A stretch of DNA of 56,061 bases, from the NCBI RefSeq assembly GCF_014698755.1, contig NZ_JACJTO010000028.1:1-56061 (forward strand), given 5' to 3'. This document shows, piece after piece, positions 30,842 through 53,682 of this stretch (positions are counted from its first letter, which is position 1; the number at the start of each line of letters is the position of its first letter). The DNA comes from Aphanizomenon flos-aquae FACHB-1287 (GTDB lineage: Bacteria; Cyanobacteriota; Cyanobacteriia; Cyanobacteriales; Nostocaceae). The notes under the pieces are model-generated. The model saw nothing but the letters and a program-made list of their open reading frames with translations. It made no database searches and was not told where the DNA came from. Both the position numbers and the translations under genes were made by a program.

Positions 30842-31153
30842 CTACCTTTTGGCTGTGGTTAGTAATTGAGATGAATCTCTATAATTAGGACTATTTACAG
30901 AGGTGGAAACATCGGCTTTTTGTTTTTGTTGACTAGATGTTATAGGTGTAACAATTTGGCGATTTTCCTTCATTAATCGGCTGTAAGTCCGTTGTGGAAT
31001 ATAGTGAATTGGATTGTAATCAATGCAACGTAAAATCAGCACACAAGCCCAAGAATACCTTCCATCAGTAATAGCTGCAATGATATTATTGAACTGTTCG
31101 GGAGTGATGACACTATGAAAATCGTTCTGAGAAGAAGAGGCCTGATAGTTCAT
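30842..31153 (-). CDS. HetP-family protein (paralogue)
   Basis: From the ATG at 31153 the protein is 103 residues (the frame is open to an ATG at 31231, but the later start gives a product like other HetP proteins). The core TPEQFNNIIAAITDGRYSWA, CVLILRCIDYNPIHYIP, QRTYSRLMKEN matches the HetP at 48614 in order and spacing. HetP proteins promote commitment of vegetative cells to heterocyst fate, and genomes often carry several paralogues. The C-terminus is a polar tail. It lies upstream of nifJ with 233 bp between them. I see no HetR-type palindrome in front of it. Confidence 0.85.
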   Translation of the reverse strand: MNYQASSSQNDFHSVITPEQFNNIIAAITDGRYSWACVLILRCIDYNPIHYIPQRTYSRLMKENRQIVTPITSSQQKQKADVSTSVNSPNYRDSSQLLTTAKR

Positions 31154-35789: not shown

Positions 35790-35860
35790 GTCTTTTCGGT
35801 CAATTGTCAGTTGTCAGTTGAAAATATCTTCTCCCTGTTCCCCTGCTCCCCTGCTCCCTA

Positions 35861-46245: not shown

Positions 46246-48613
46246 ATCCCACATTCGTTATCTCTCTGACTGGTCTAAGAAGTCCGGGAGATGATTGTTC
46301 ACAAAACCTAAAAAATACAGAATTTCTTAATTATCTGATTTTCATCCAACTTTTGGGAGATTTTATTTTCCTATTATTTCCGGAATTGAGTGAAAAAATC
46401 AGTAATGTTTAAGTGTTGAATAGTTTAAATCTGAACCTCAATGCTTTAGGATATATGTCTTTTTCCCTGATTTATCTCCAAGAATTCTAAATTTATGGAA
46501 GATAAATTTTTGGACTCAGTGTCATGGGGTTGACTTTCCCACCGAAGTTATGAAAAAATGAAGAGTCAGCAAATGGCAATAAATCACATTAGTAATTGCC
46601 TTTAGCAAGTGCTATGGAAATAACAGCACGCTTGAAAGTTAATTACTTAACATAAATTTTCCTCAGGGTCGAAAAAATCACTTGTTCTCCATTTCATTTC
46701 AGGTTGTGGGAAATAAAAAGCCGGAAATTACCAACCTAAAAATATTCCCCACTCCAGTTGGAAACAGATGAGAATTTACCAGTACACTTTAATCATCAAT
46801 GATACTAGTAGTTGCAGGATAGTTGAATAAAGCAAGGACAGCAGGAGCTTTATCAAGCTATTTTGTCAGGTTAGTTCAGATGCAAATGCCGTTAGTATCT
46901 AAGACTGCCAGTTAAGGTGATAAGTTCCCAATTGTTTTTAATAAAATTAAAACTTTGCAATAGTGAGCACCCTGAAAATTTCCCATCTTACTTAAAAACT
47001 CAAGTAGCTTGGGAGTTACAATATAACCTCCTGATTGCTTTGTGTCAAGGAGTTAATTGATAAATTTTTGAGTAAGTTGTCAAAAAAATCTGAGTTAGTA
47101 ATTAGTTCTTAAAGCTGAATAGTAGGGGTTAATATACTGAAATTTTGGAAGACTTATTTTTTTAAAATTACTTAGGAATACGGACTCAATCTTGATTCAT
47201 ACCCAAGTATTATCTTTAGCCAGAAGAATCTGCGAAAATTGATAATAAATAATGATAGTTATTTTTACCAAATTAGTTTAATGAATATATTGTAATGTTG
47301 CCTATAGTAATAAGTTGTATAGATATAATTAATAAACTGGCTATTATCATTAATACCAATACCGGCTAATAAATAAATAGCTATTAAGTCAACAAATAAG
47401 ATAATAGCCAAATGTCATTGGTGATACAGTTTTTGTGATCTACATCTATCTAAATGTGTTCTTTATCTAAAATCAAAGATATTGAGAATTTCAATTAATT
47501 GACAAGACTAGAGAATTAACAAAAAATATTTTGCTAGTTTTTGAATTATTTCTTAATTTAGACTTCTATCTATTTTTAAAGACAAAAAAACCTTGAAACA
47601 GCTTTACAGTAAGAGTCTTGGCCAACTAAAATATATAATAAATAGCTACTTTTTTAGTTAAACTTTAACGTATTACTAATATATTTGGTTTCTAAAACTA
47701 TTTATATGCTAGGAGCATATATAAAGTATGTTAGTGGTATTTTTGCTTTGTATGACAATGATAACATCTGCCATTGAGATTAAGGTGGGGGGTGACACCC
47801 CTCATTTTTTGCCAAGTGGTGACAAAAATCAAACTTGCACAGGACATAAGTAAATATCTAGATAAGTTCAGTAAATTTAACTTAAATCTTGCCACCTTGG
47901 CAGATGACATTAGCGACAAAAAATAGTATAAATAAAAATGTGGCTTTTGAAATTGAGAAATCAATCGTTTTTCTGATTCCATTCAGCATTTGTCAGCTTT
48001 TACAGCAAAAGCTACAAAAACAATGGTAAGAAGTTATATAGCAGTAACTAGGATAAAACTGAAAATTTCCACTTTTAAGTTTCAAGAGTACACAATGGCA
48101 TCTACGAAAAGCTACGTCTAACTCAGTTCTTCTTGGTAGAAATCAGAAAATTTGGTAAATTTTTACCTTTAATTCATTAGTAAATATAAACCCAAAGCCC
48201 AGACGCAATTAATACATATTATTTCTATGAGCTATGGATATTACTAATTGAAAACTGTAATACCGCGCAGGAAATTAGGATACAAGCGACAAAGCACAAC
48301 AGTACACAGGCTTGATTAAAAACAATCAGGTTTTCAATCACAGGTCAGGTTATGAAAAAAATCATCAGGTCAAATGCGTTTTTTAAGTCAGTTCAACGGG
48401 TGACTTTAGAGATACGGTTCTTTAAATTTCCTTCTGGTCAGGTATGGGTGTTCACAAGTACCGGACTTTTGCAACAAGTTGTTACTCTTTTCAACATCTG
48501 TCACCAATTGATTATTTATAGGTTCTGGTCATTCCCGCAACAGCAATTTGGCTGAAGACCATGGCATTTGCAGACACTGAACTAATTTACTCAATTCAAA
48601 AACAACTAAGATT
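46246..48613. other. 2.4-kb non-coding region upstream of hetP
   Basis: No convincing gene is found. Frames of 60-83 codons on either strand (47731-47982 minus, 48352-48555 plus) look like chance. The region is AT-rich and contains the HetR-like palindrome at 47789-47801. The rest shows no recognisable RNA gene. The distance from palindrome to hetP implies a long leader of hundreds of bases. Confidence 0.6.
47789..47801. promoter_or_regulatory. candidate HetR-binding palindrome upstream of hetP
   Basis: GGGGTGACACCCC is a perfect 13-bp palindrome followed by TCATT. From memory, the HetR site in front of hetP of Anabaena PCC 7120 has the core GGGGTCTAACCCCTCATT. Here the two half-sites and the TCATT flank are the same and only the central bases differ. 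It lies about 0.8 kb upstream of hetP, comparable with the far-upstream heterocyst start described for the 7120 gene. Confidence 0.65.
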
Positions 48614-48997
48614 ATGAATCAAGATATTGCTGGTAGTGGTAACAACTTAGAACCAAAAATCCATCCGGAACAGTTGGACCAAGTGGTTGAGGCGATTTTA
48701 GCAGGGAAGTATTCTTGGGCTTGTGTTTTAATGTTGCGGTTCGTAGGCTACAATCCAATGCATTATATCCCTTATCGTACTTATAACCGTATCCTGAAAG
48801 AGAATGCTCGCATAGGTCGCTCAAATACACAAAATAATGAACCGCTAAAACTTGCCAAACCAACCACAGAGAAAAGAGCCGAAGGCAATCTGGCCTCTAG
48901 TTGTTTAAACAAGATTAAAGATATGGCTTATCTAGAAGTGGGAAGTAAGCAAAAGGCAGAGTCCCACACTAATAGTAGGGAAAAAAAGTCGGCATAG
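48614..48997 (+). CDS. hetP: heterocyst commitment protein HetP
   Basis: The 127-residue protein has the HetP core [40 protein letters not shown] and YNRILKEN. HetP acts in commitment to heterocyst differentiation downstream of HetR. The C-terminal 55 residues are polar and low in order. The HetR-like palindrome about 0.8 kb upstream supports the idea that this is the HetR-regulated member, rather than the paralogue at 30842-31153. The ATG at 48614 is the only sensible start. The exporter cluster begins 1.35 kb downstream. Confidence 0.85.
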
Positions 48998-50961: not shown

Positions 50962-53682
50962 ATGCTGTCAGCGTTTTCTCAAGAACAGTTAGTTACACAT
51001 ATTAAGCAGGTTCTGAGTGATGGGTTATCAGATCAAGCAGTTAAAGATTGTATCAAGGCATTAGAAATTATTGAACCACCAGTAGCCAAGCAATTTTGGC
51101 AAGCGATAACAGCAAAACCGGGAATTTATATTGTGCTGACGGGTAAGGTGAGATTATTGGATAGTGCCAATAATTTAATTAATACTCTCACCCCAGGGTC
51201 ATCATTTGGGGAGTTGACTTTATTTCCAGAACGAGAGTTTAGCAGTTATGTTGCTAGAGCTTCTGTGAATTTAAAGATTGCTTATCTTCCCGAACAGATT
51301 GTCAAGAAGATCATAGGTCAATTTCCTCATGTCTATGATCTTTTATTGCATAAAGCGGAACTAATTAATACTTCCAAGTCTTCTGAAATTCCGATTATTG
51401 AAACAGTAAAGACTGTAAAAAGTTCTAATTTTTTTCAACCAATAATTTCCAAATCGATACAATCTCAAAAAAGCCCTAAATACTTTCCTATTCCTACTGT
51501 AATTGCTGGCAATTGGTGGCGTAAATTTACTAAACGCTATCCATTTTTTGAACAACAAAGTGCTGCTGATTGTGGTGCTGCTTGTTTAGTTATGGTTGGT
51601 CGTTATTGGGGTAAAAACCTAAGTATTAATCGGCTGCGGGATCTAACTAATATTAGCCGTAGTGGTGCATCAATGAGAAGTTTGAGTGCAGCGGCAGAAA
51701 GCCTTGGTTTTGCTACTCGTCCAGTGAAAGCTAGTTTAGATAAATTCGCTCAACAGCCTTTACCAGCGATCGCTCATTGGCAGGGTAAACATTACATTGT
51801 TGTCTATGAAATTACAAAAAAACAGGTAATTATTGCCGATCCAGCTATTGGCCAACGTCAGCTAAATATTAAGGAATTTCTGGCAGGTTGGACTGGTTAC
51901 GCTTTATTATTACAGCCTACAGCTTCCCTCAAAAAAACGCAAGAAGCTAACACGCCATTTTGGCAGTTATTAGATTTAGTTAAACCCCACTTTCAAGTTC
52001 TACTCGAAGTATTTACTGCTTCAGTATTAATTCAGGTATTTGGATTAGTTACACCTTTATTTACTCAACTTTTATTAGATAGAGTAATTGTTCAAGGTAG
52101 TGTTTTAACCTTAAATACTGTAGGATTTGGATTGTTAATTTTTGGTTTGTTTCGTGTTGCCATTAATGGGTTAAGACAATATTTACTAGATCACACCGCT
52201 AACCGAATTAGTGTAGCTTTAATGGTGGGATTTATTAAACATACATTTAGTTTACCTCTCTCATTTTTTGAGTCTCGTTATGTGGGTGATATTGTCTCCC
52301 GTGTTCAAGAAAATCAAAAAATTCAACGGTTTTTGACTGGTGAAGCTTTGTCTATTGGTTTGGATTTATTAACGGTATTTGTTTATATAGGATTAATGTT
52401 TTGGTACAGTCCACCAATGGCATTAATGACATTGTCAATTGTGCCACCGTTTGTGTTATTAACATTCTTTGCCACACCATTTTTACGGCGAATTAGTCGA
52501 GAGGTATTTACTGCCGGAACACTGGAAAATAGTTATTTAATTCAAAGCTTGACTGGCATTTCTTCAATTCGTTCTATGGCTATTGAACAAGCAGTTCGTT
52601 GGCATTGGGAAGAATTGCTAAATAATTTAATCAAAAAGAATTTTGGTGGTCAAGTAATTAGTAATCAACTGCAATTAGTTAGCTCGACTATTCAATCTTT
52701 AGCAAGTACGGGATTATTATGGTTTGGGGCTTGGTTGGTGATTCAAAATCAACTTACTATTGGTCAATTAGTAGCTTTTAATATGTTGCTGGGCAATATT
52801 ATTCAGCCCTTTCAACGACTAATTATTTTGTGGAATCAATTGCAAGAGGTAATTGTCGCTACGGAACGAATTAATGATGTATTGGAGGCAGAACCAGAGG
52901 AAAATGTAGAACGTGAGACTCGGCAATTTTTACCGAGATTAATCGGGAAAATTAGTTTTAATAATGTTACCTTTCGCTACCATCCTGAAAGTGAGATTAA
53001 TATTTTAGAAAATCTCAGTTTTGAGATATTGCCCGAACAAACTGTAGCCGTTGTTGGGCGCAGTGGGTCGGGGAAAACAACACTTTCTAAATTGATTTTG
53101 GGTTTATATCTGGCGACAGATGGAAGAGTTTTAATTGACAATCAAGATGTGACTAGTATTTCCTTAAATTCATTGCGATCGCAAATAGGAGTTGTTGATC
53201 AAGATACATTTTTATTTGGCGGAACAATTCGAGAAAATATCACAATTGCCCATCCTGAAGCCTCTTTAGAAGAGATTATGGAAGCAGCCCAACTTGCAGG
53301 TGCAGATGAGTTTATTAAAAGAATGCCAATGGGTTATGAAACCCAAATTGGTGAAGGTGGTGGAATGTTATCAGGAGGACAACGTCAACGGTTAGCAATT
53401 GCCCGTGCACTATTAGGAAATCCCCGACTTTTAATATTAGATGAAGCTACAAGTCATCTTGATTCTGAATCAGAACGCATTATTCAGAATAACCTCAAAA
53501 AAATCCTCCAAGGTCGTACAAGTGTAATTATTGCTCACCGTCTTTCTACTGTTCGTAATGCGGATTTAATCTTAGTTTTAGATCGTGGTGTTCTAGTAGA
53601 AAGCGGTACACATGAAGAATTAATTACTAAAAAAGGACATTATTTCTATCTCAATCAACAACAATTAGCGCAAACAAATTAA
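50962..53682 (+). CDS. peptidase-containing ABC exporter with cNMP-like domain
   Basis: The 906-residue exporter combines four parts. A cyclic-nucleotide-binding-like domain is at about 35-135, with TPGSSFGELTLFPE. A C39 peptidase is at about 190-320, with Cys204 in SAADCGAACL, His277 in GKHYIVV and Asp293 in IADPAIG. A six-helix ABC membrane domain spans about 340-625. The ATPase has Walker A GRSGSGKT (699-706), LSGGQRQR and LLILDEATSHLD. Such exporters cut double-glycine leaders from peptides and export them. HetC of Anabaena, encoded beside hetP, has a similar plan, so this could be a HetC relative, though HetC is longer in memory. No leader peptide gene is seen nearby. Ribosome site GGAGG. 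Confidence 0.9.
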   Translation: MLSAFSQEQLVTHIKQVLSDGLSDQAVKDCIKALEIIEPPVAKQFWQAITAKPGIYIVLTGKVRLLDSANNLINTLTPGSSFGELTLFPEREFSSYVARASVNLKIAYLPEQIVKKIIGQFPHVYDLLLHKAELINTSKSSEIPIIETVKTVKSSNFFQPIISKSIQSQKSPKYFPIPTVIAGNWWRKFTKRYPFFEQQSAADCGAACLVMVGRYWGKNLSINRLRDLTNISRSGASMRSLSAAAESLGFATRPVKASLDKFAQQPLPAIAHWQGKHYIVVYEITKKQVIIADPAIGQRQLNIKEFLAGWTGYALLLQPTASLKKTQEANTPFWQLLDLVKPHFQVLLEVFTASVLIQVFGLVTPLFTQLLLDRVIVQGSVLTLNTVGFGLLIFGLFRVAINGLRQYLLDHTANRISVALMVGFIKHTFSLPLSFFESRYVGDIVSRVQENQKIQRFLTGEALSIGLDLLTVFVYIGLMFWYSPPMALMTLSIVPPFVLLTFFATPFLRRISREVFTAGTLENSYLIQSLTGISSIRSMAIEQAVRWHWEELLNNLIKKNFGGQVISNQLQLVSSTIQSLASTGLLWFGAWLVIQNQLTIGQLVAFNMLLGNIIQPFQRLIILWNQLQEVIVATERINDVLEAEPEENVERETRQFLPRLIGKISFNNVTFRYHPESEINILENLSFEILPEQTVAVVGRSGSGKTTLSKLILGLYLATDGRVLIDNQDVTSISLNSLRSQIGVVDQDTFLFGGTIRENITIAHPEASLEEIMEAAQLAGADEFIKRMPMGYETQIGEGGGMLSGGQRQRLAIARALLGNPRLLILDEATSHLDSESERIIQNNLKKILQGRTSVIIAHRLSTVRNADLILVLDRGVLVESGTHEELITKKGHYFYLNQQQLAQTN

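Follow-up and report, generated by a model that had tools for sequence, protein, structure and literature searches.

The GGG-N5-CCC palindrome lying 824 nt 5' of the hetP start codon in Aphanizomenon flos-aquae FACHB-1287 is very probably (about 0.88 for the explanation as a whole, which is built on sequence comparison) the known HetR operator of hetP, set in a composite promoter and followed by a leader that would be an eroded HlyD-family gene. HetR is the master switch for nitrogen-fixing cells, and hetP, a commitment gene in heterocyst development, is the target usually taken to exemplify how HetR acts. The operator is thus of a known kind; the new part is the composite layout, together with the HlyD gene found between operator and hetP, no description of which was found in the open papers searched (most subscription journals lie outside this coverage). 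The comparison shows that evolution keeps operator bases beyond those found essential in gel shifts, points to more promoter elements with fixed spacing and gives a possible reason why the leader is long. The features concerned, numbered in the window (the whole stretch of 56,061 nt analysed here), are the following:

46377..46418, plus strand: DIF1-type promoter-like block, TTTCCGGAATT...ATCAGTAATG, with TCCGGA at 46379-46384
47786..47804, plus strand: HetR operator in its 19-bp form, TGGGGGGTGACACCCCTCA here, consensus TGAGGGGTNNNACCCCTCA
47820..47843, plus strand: conserved linker (consensus GGACAAAANNNAAAGTTGCACAAT), 34-35 bp past the operator start in most loci
47890..47902, no strand assigned: inverted repeat TGCCA-CCT-TGGCA, directly 5' of P2
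47902..47934, plus strand: P2, promoter-like, ATGACA (47904-47909), 17 nt, TATAAA (47927-47932)
48095..48108, plus strand: GCATCTACC box (consensus ACTGCATCTACCAA), 192-198 nt past the P2 start in most loci
48352..48555, plus strand: 67-aa ORF (MKKIIRSNA...), probable remnant of the HlyD-family gene found here in other genomes
48614..48997, plus strand: hetP, 127 aa, the presumed target

The original prediction of a HetR-operator-like palindrome about 0.8 kb upstream of hetP is borne out by a direct read of the window, where GGGGTGACACCCC stands at 47789-47801 (in the context ...AAGGTGGGGGGTGACACCCCTCATTTTTT...), with GGG at 47790-92, CCC at 47798-800 and CTCATT on the right flank. The Anabaena PCC 7120 site to which it had been likened was also correctly given, the published 21-mer being gcgaggggtctaacccctcat (PMC4649674). 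By itself, the 13-mer is unexceptional, and its conservation is the proof. The exact GGGGTNNNACCCC is found in one place only in the window, the 4.35-Mb genome holds three exact copies of the motif and also three of a backwards-read control pattern, about 7e-4 sites are expected per given 1 kb at genome density, and nine window matches are obtained with two mismatches allowed, against 7.7 by chance. A further GGGGTAAAACCCC copy lies at G000:C22:2718-2730 (L231), about 130 nt before a gene that we take from its reading to be nifK, with a recombinase-like ORF adjoining on the other strand. Elsewhere in this genome, nifH is in two pieces about 6.3 kb apart on a single contig (G000:C3:90295-90744 and 97074-97487), as if split by an excisable element, and the same is seen in G042.

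The gene downstream of the palindrome is identified as hetP itself, not a paralogue, by the identity of relatives' genes at the locus (57-89% among the best 80 of 179 relatives, Dolichospermum closest) and by the gene order GH116-[hetC]-hetP; its 127-aa product matches no Pfam family at E 0.001. Two more hetP homologues, 54% and 46% identical, are encoded in the genome, and the latter lies in the same window at 30911-31153 on the minus strand. Within 2 kb of hetP, GGGN5CCC is present in 80/80 named loci (the best 80 of the 179 relatives found) against 5.7 expected from first-order Markov shuffles, and GGGTN3ACCC in 76/80 against 0.7. Family genomes with hetP number 142, of which 112 were fetched; the remaining 30 are the window's own, 19 paired with a named locus and 10 that were initially left out and examined later, all ten of which carry the GGGN5CCC core. 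The loci of the fetched genomes extend at most 4 kb upstream (0.85, 2.8 and 3.5 kb in three of them), and hetC is therefore seen only partly in them. GGGN5CCC is absent within 3 kb of hetP in five of these 112 genomes (L130, L173, L188, L211, L216), the best match lies inside GH116 coding sequence in two (L217 and L223, judged from translation), and the palindrome looks genuine in the other 105 (L194 and L176 judged by sequence). Near-duplicate removal reduced 193 upstreams to the 126 on which the array and word counts below are based; 120 of these have the palindrome by a palindrome-only criterion, at least one of them spuriously (L223, in GH116 coding sequence).

In the 80 named loci, clear sites lie at -418 to -1767, and the range becomes -371 to -1767 once the 112 further genomes join. 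The proposal that the distance to hetP resembles that in Anabaena therefore holds only loosely, the operator being at -824 in the window and at -590 in L228, a PCC 7120-like genome. Weighing against the operator reading, in L130 (G009), L173 (G051) and L188 (G086) the linker is kept, the operator is lost and HetR is encoded; G009, which also retains P2 and a 258-aa ORF, is a natural test.

The HetR gene is encoded in the genome of FACHB-1287, and its product can be aligned along its length with HetR chains of solved structure. It carries R62, H69, E71, K73, R74 and K76 (numbering counted by hand on the alignments), at the positions reported to lie at the DNA (residues 62, 69, 71, 73, 74 and 76; PMC4649674). 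In PCC 7120, HetR binds the hetP operator in vitro (PMC4649674, PMC7476756, PMC12756182), an in vivo HetR ChIP peak lies between hetC and hetP (PMC4192349), and hetP induction requires HetR (PMC7476756); by analogy, HetR binding and HetR-dependent induction of hetP would be expected in this organism. A consensus drawn from hetP promoters of several strains is quoted in PMC4192349, and conservation was therefore already implied. The conserved HetR control suggested at the outset is upheld by the family-wide operator, a HetR with the same DNA-contact residues and a true hetP locus (GH116-[hetC]-hetP). The comparison of hetP upstream regions proposed as a check found the palindrome conserved, and refutation by non-conservation did not succeed.

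Which operator bases are kept was assessed in 118 loci, chosen by requiring GGGN5CCC and crediting linker and P2, so that the presence of the six core letters is built in. Beyond the core, G(-6) is found in 118 loci, T(-2) in 108, A(+2) in 115 and C(+6) in 117, these four letters being favoured by the selection score without being required. The midpoint is A or T in 115/118 and the two flanking bases are free, giving 38 different N5 centres. TGACA, present in 5/118, is an ordinary centre; the difference from the TCTAA of PCC 7120 pointed out earlier is real, and it concerns a stretch in which the positions next to the midpoint are unconstrained. By gel shifts and the HetR-DNA structure, only GGG-N5-CCC is indispensable (PMC4649674), and evolution keeps more operator bases than these binding assays demanded. 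Two bases before GGG, the window has G (as do 24/118 loci) where the ChIP-seq consensus has A (PMC4192349); this A is not a defining base, since gel shifts saw no effect outside GGG-N5-CCC (PMC4649674).

Sequence conservation further suggests that the operator is part of a larger conserved promoter. Several ten-letter words recur in the 126 upstreams far above expectation: AAATAGTATA (79 observed, 2 expected), the exact P2 word TAGTATAAAT (76 and 1), AGATGACATT (70 and 0.4), AAGTTGCACA (56 and 0.4) and AACTGCATCT (47 and 0.4). They form an ordered array in which the operator is followed by the linker at +32 to +37 (mode 35), by P2 at +113 to +120 (modes 116-117) and, in most loci, by the GCATCTACC box, at +192 to +198 when counted from P2. 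At the expected offsets, the linker is found in 86, P2 in 97 and the GCATCTACC box in 93 of 120 loci, against 0, 0 and 0-1 at six control offsets, with mismatch limits that were set after the consensus words were known and that the controls share. A perfect 5-bp inverted repeat stands just 5' of P2 in 31/95 loci, against 2/570 control places. Across 98 loci, P2 reads ATGACA in 83, TATAAA in 72 and TATAAG in 16, the usual final T of the -10 being missing; a simple sigma-70 scan does not pick P2, whose predicted start is at about 47940. An ORF beginning at the ATGACATT of P2 was considered and rejected: across 84 loci it stops at many different lengths, anywhere between 2 and 187 codons and most often at 19, and by our own reading its conserved letters lack a codon pattern.

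A sequence-only model of the stretch from operator to P2 scores the FACHB-1287 copy at 112.8 bits and the next match in that genome at 13.8, making the unit single-copy, and it matches 136/145 family genomes. Five of these matches (G016, G043, G047, G086, G120) are weak: their 22-26 bits do not improve on the best score from outside the family, though by eye each is placed immediately ahead of hetP. Among 195 genomes drawn from the order, scores outside the family reach at most 26.2 bits, and 12 family genomes score at least 64. The model is unmatched in nine genomes (G042, G051, G071, G081, G082, G085, G097, G106, G135), of which G071 (L198) and G097 (L194) nonetheless have a GGGN5CCC palindrome before hetP and G085, G106 and G135 have no hetP match; HetR is encoded in 8/8 of those tested, a set made up of all nine except G071. 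The linker may be the site of a second regulator or a HetR-proximal promoter, and it has diverged in the PCC 7120 clade, where HetR control is nonetheless established.

In the proposed mechanism, exhaustion of nitrogen would lead HetR dimers to bind GGG-N5-CCC and increase transcription towards hetP, which would then commit the cell to the heterocyst fate. RGSGR-type peptides would release HetR; the sole match to a PatS/PatX-type RG[STND]GR peptide in the window is on the minus strand at 35844, away from hetP. As the operator is held at a near-fixed distance from the linker (+34/35 bp) and from P2 (+116/117 bp), the most likely arrangement is that HetR works as part of a single composite promoter. 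Transcription would begin in the linker if HetR acted as it does at hetZ, while HetR would sit about 145 bp upstream if P2 were the HetR-driven promoter.

The two elements could also be stacked promoters, with a HetR-dependent start in the linker, about 45 nt past the operator centre as at hetZ, and a separate, HetR-independent P2, a possibility that we take seriously while holding it to fall somewhat short of an even chance. At Nodularia hetZ, the centre of the HetR site lies about 45 nt before the mapped start (PMC3610870; centre computed here), and by eye GGGAGACAT follows the hetZ site at a distance similar to that of GGG(G)GACAAAA after the hetP site. In addition, the published hetP gel-shift fragment stops short of P2 (PMC6985446): by eye, its primers fit a homologous fragment in L227 (forward exactly, reverse with one mismatch) that has operator and linker inside and P2 outside. 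However, no canonical -10 is conserved at the place required for a linker start, and a separate P2 gives no reason for the 113-120 bp spacing kept in 97 loci. Moreover, three PCC 7120-clade loci (L212, L214, L228) keep P2 although their linker has diverged, while L195, of the same genus, is without P2 at the same mismatch limit. The held spacing and this persistence of P2 favour P2 having a part.

Of the 80 named loci, 17 match at least 800 of the 1042 HetC residues, 30 match part of hetC and 33 none of it; hetC is thus absent or partial in 63/80, some partial genes being contig ends (L065, L088) and some of the 33 loci having a short upstream (L042, L055). It is whole in L228 and missing from the window, where the nearest protein to HetC in the genome is an exporter encoded after hetP, 45% identical. 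In PCC 7120, hetC was found necessary for heterocysts. A second exporter (50962-53682), which carries C39 and cNMP domains, is encoded past hetP here and in 33/80 named loci. The DIF1-type block occupies the place of hetC's upstream region in L052 and L104, which keep hetC; its motif (TCCGGA plus a -10 at 17-18 nt) is whole in 11/13 Dolichospermum-clade loci (in L035 it is cut by the end of the aligned stretch, and L043 is without it), and the TCCGGA block, counted by hand in about 45 of the 126 upstreams, is kept where hetC is gone. Another block, at 46814-46888, shows strong conservation among Dolichospermum-clade loci, with identities of 0.84-0.90.

Downstream of P2, the distance from the predicted start to hetP ranges from 255 to 1612 nt, with a median of 674 (97 loci), and the variation goes with a gene. 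The block at 48352 is found in 68 loci (at most 6 mismatches), with an ATG there in 65, after which come mostly M..IIRSNAVETSSQ-like residues in frames of 10 to 415 codons; among relatives, the gene in the leader thus goes from 415 aa down to nothing, with its M..IIRSNAVETSSQ start conserved. An ORF of 170 aa or longer is present in 34/38 leaders of at least 1200 nt, and one of at least 80 aa in 0/45 leaders below 700 nt, a comparison that is partly circular as a long ORF needs room. Against a PF13437 cut-off of 22.2 bits, the longest leader ORF (L124, 415 aa) scores 43 bits and that of L055 37.6 bits; in all, PF13437 (HlyD_3) is matched at E 0.01 by 5/35 long leader ORFs, the others presumably being too diverged or decayed. 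A profile built from five leader ORFs recovers 48/63 others at E 0.001, and 29/53 without their first 18 residues, but no shuffled copy. The best copies are, by these domain matches, HlyD-family membrane-fusion proteins. Upstream of the 35 long ORFs, hetC covers at least 500 residues in 23, is partial in 3 and is lacking in 9, many of these loci reaching only 4 kb. In the fullest form seen, the locus runs hetC - [HetR operator, linker, P2] - HlyD gene - hetP, with GH116 preceding hetC in several loci whose sequence extends that far.

In many relatives, the HlyD-family gene comes first after the promoter and hetP second, often with hetC just before the operator. The 67-aa ORF of the window matches no Pfam family and does not reach E 1e-3 in the five-copy family profile; it is consequently by its start, its position and the intermediates in its clade that it is tied to the HlyD gene. 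L228 has no trace of the leader gene. With hetC gone and the HlyD gene shrunk to 67 aa, the hetP leader would measure about 0.67 kb from P2, or about 0.77 kb if transcription began about 45 nt past the operator centre, as at hetZ. Because relatives carry an HlyD gene where this ORF is left, the leader is probably the remnant of a HetR-controlled exporter-partner gene. The original prediction of a very long leader in a 2.4-kb non-coding region was therefore right in part: such a leader is plausible, but an eroded gene accounts for its length better than an RNA does, and the region is not wholly non-coding, since the ORF at 48352-48555 has a conserved start and position and the look of a gene remnant.

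It is less likely, though far from negligible, that the block at 48352 is kept for another reason than a lost gene, for instance as a leader peptide controlling hetP. The first ten codons are very alike where the remainder of the ORF is short, the window's clade shows 0.90-0.96 identity across 48314-48388, and the ORF of L224 has just 24 codons, all of which speak for it; yet in other genomes ORFs as long as 415 codons, belonging to one protein family, begin at this very start.

The suggestion that the leader could hold an RNA fared poorly, and a HetR-driven non-coding RNA is now improbable. The fixed spacing from operator to GCATC box would suit it, and an antisense RNA is reported on the other strand of the hetC-hetP interval of PCC 7120 (PMC3141674). 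However, no Rfam family matches the leader, the fold of 47940-48080 has a z-score of only -0.4, and RNAalifold, run on three clade sets with shuffled columns for comparison, gave only the palindrome and short weak hairpins (one of -2.0 kcal/mol ahead of P2 in the Nostoc-like set, and several in the Dolichospermum set, whose sequences have diverged little); the downstream leader is moreover a gene or its remnant.

Still less credible is that the palindrome is an intrinsic terminator for the upstream transcript, a GC hairpin followed by TTTTTT. In the window it does score as terminator-like, with a 12-bp hairpin of -15.3 kcal/mol (z -1.9), but a run of at least four T within 16 nt after the palindrome, present here, occurs in just 15/118 loci, while the palindrome persists and so does its spacing from P2; it may be both operator and terminator in Dolichospermum-type genomes. 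Finally, a chance palindrome, which equal genome counts for motif and reversed pattern (three each) would allow, is refuted by its conservation in the named loci (80/80 against 5.7 for GGGN5CCC, 76/80 against 0.7 for GGGTN3ACCC).

Taken as the HetR operator of hetP, the site of the window can be set beside known systems. It shares with the PCC 7120 hetP site (GAGGGGTCTAACCCCTC) the gene, the side, the GGG-N5-CCC core and the right flank CTCAT, and it differs in its centre, TGACA instead of TCTAA, and in having G instead of A two bases before GGG. In contrast to the PCC 7120 locus, the window has no hetC between GH116 and hetP and has the 67-aa ORF remnant in the leader; its linker is also nearer the family consensus than that of the PCC 7120 clade. 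The hetZ site (GGGTCAAGCCC, start at -425/-429) is similar in that there, too, a heterocyst regulator is preceded by a HetR palindrome and a long leader, but its centre lies about 45 nt before the mapped start, whereas the promoter-like element best conserved at hetP would put this distance at about 145 nt, unless transcription starts in the linker. A search of the whole genome with the Nodularia pattern for the hetZ site, with 3 mismatches, gave no match. DIF1-motif promoters (TCCGGA) are those of hetR, patS, patX and nsiR1. The block 2.2 kb before hetP resembles them in its TCCGGA and -10-like TAATG; unlike them, it stands apart from the HetR operator and precedes hetC where hetC is kept, and it is a candidate promoter only.

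HlyD genes that go with peptidase-type ABC exporters provide the last comparison, as relatives have such a gene between hetC and hetP (L124). The leader gene differs from known HlyD genes in lying behind a HetR operator and before hetP, in being reduced to 67 aa here and absent in L228, and in that its partnership with HetC is putative, as are the start site and the binding partner of the linker. A 2024 study found no membrane-fusion gene near hetC and read this as support for periplasmic export (PMC10986499); the membrane-fusion gene that lies behind the HetR operator beside hetC in other heterocyst formers bears on that argument. A tentative scenario, for which we would put the odds a little below one in two, is that in early heterocyst formers HetR drove HetC's membrane-fusion partner and hetP from one composite promoter, with HetR perhaps acting from about 145 bp upstream through a second protein bound at the linker; HetC would have begun in a full exporter out of the cell, unlike a pump into the periplasm, and the long leader of most heterocyst formers, the model strains among them, would be the scar of that partner gene.
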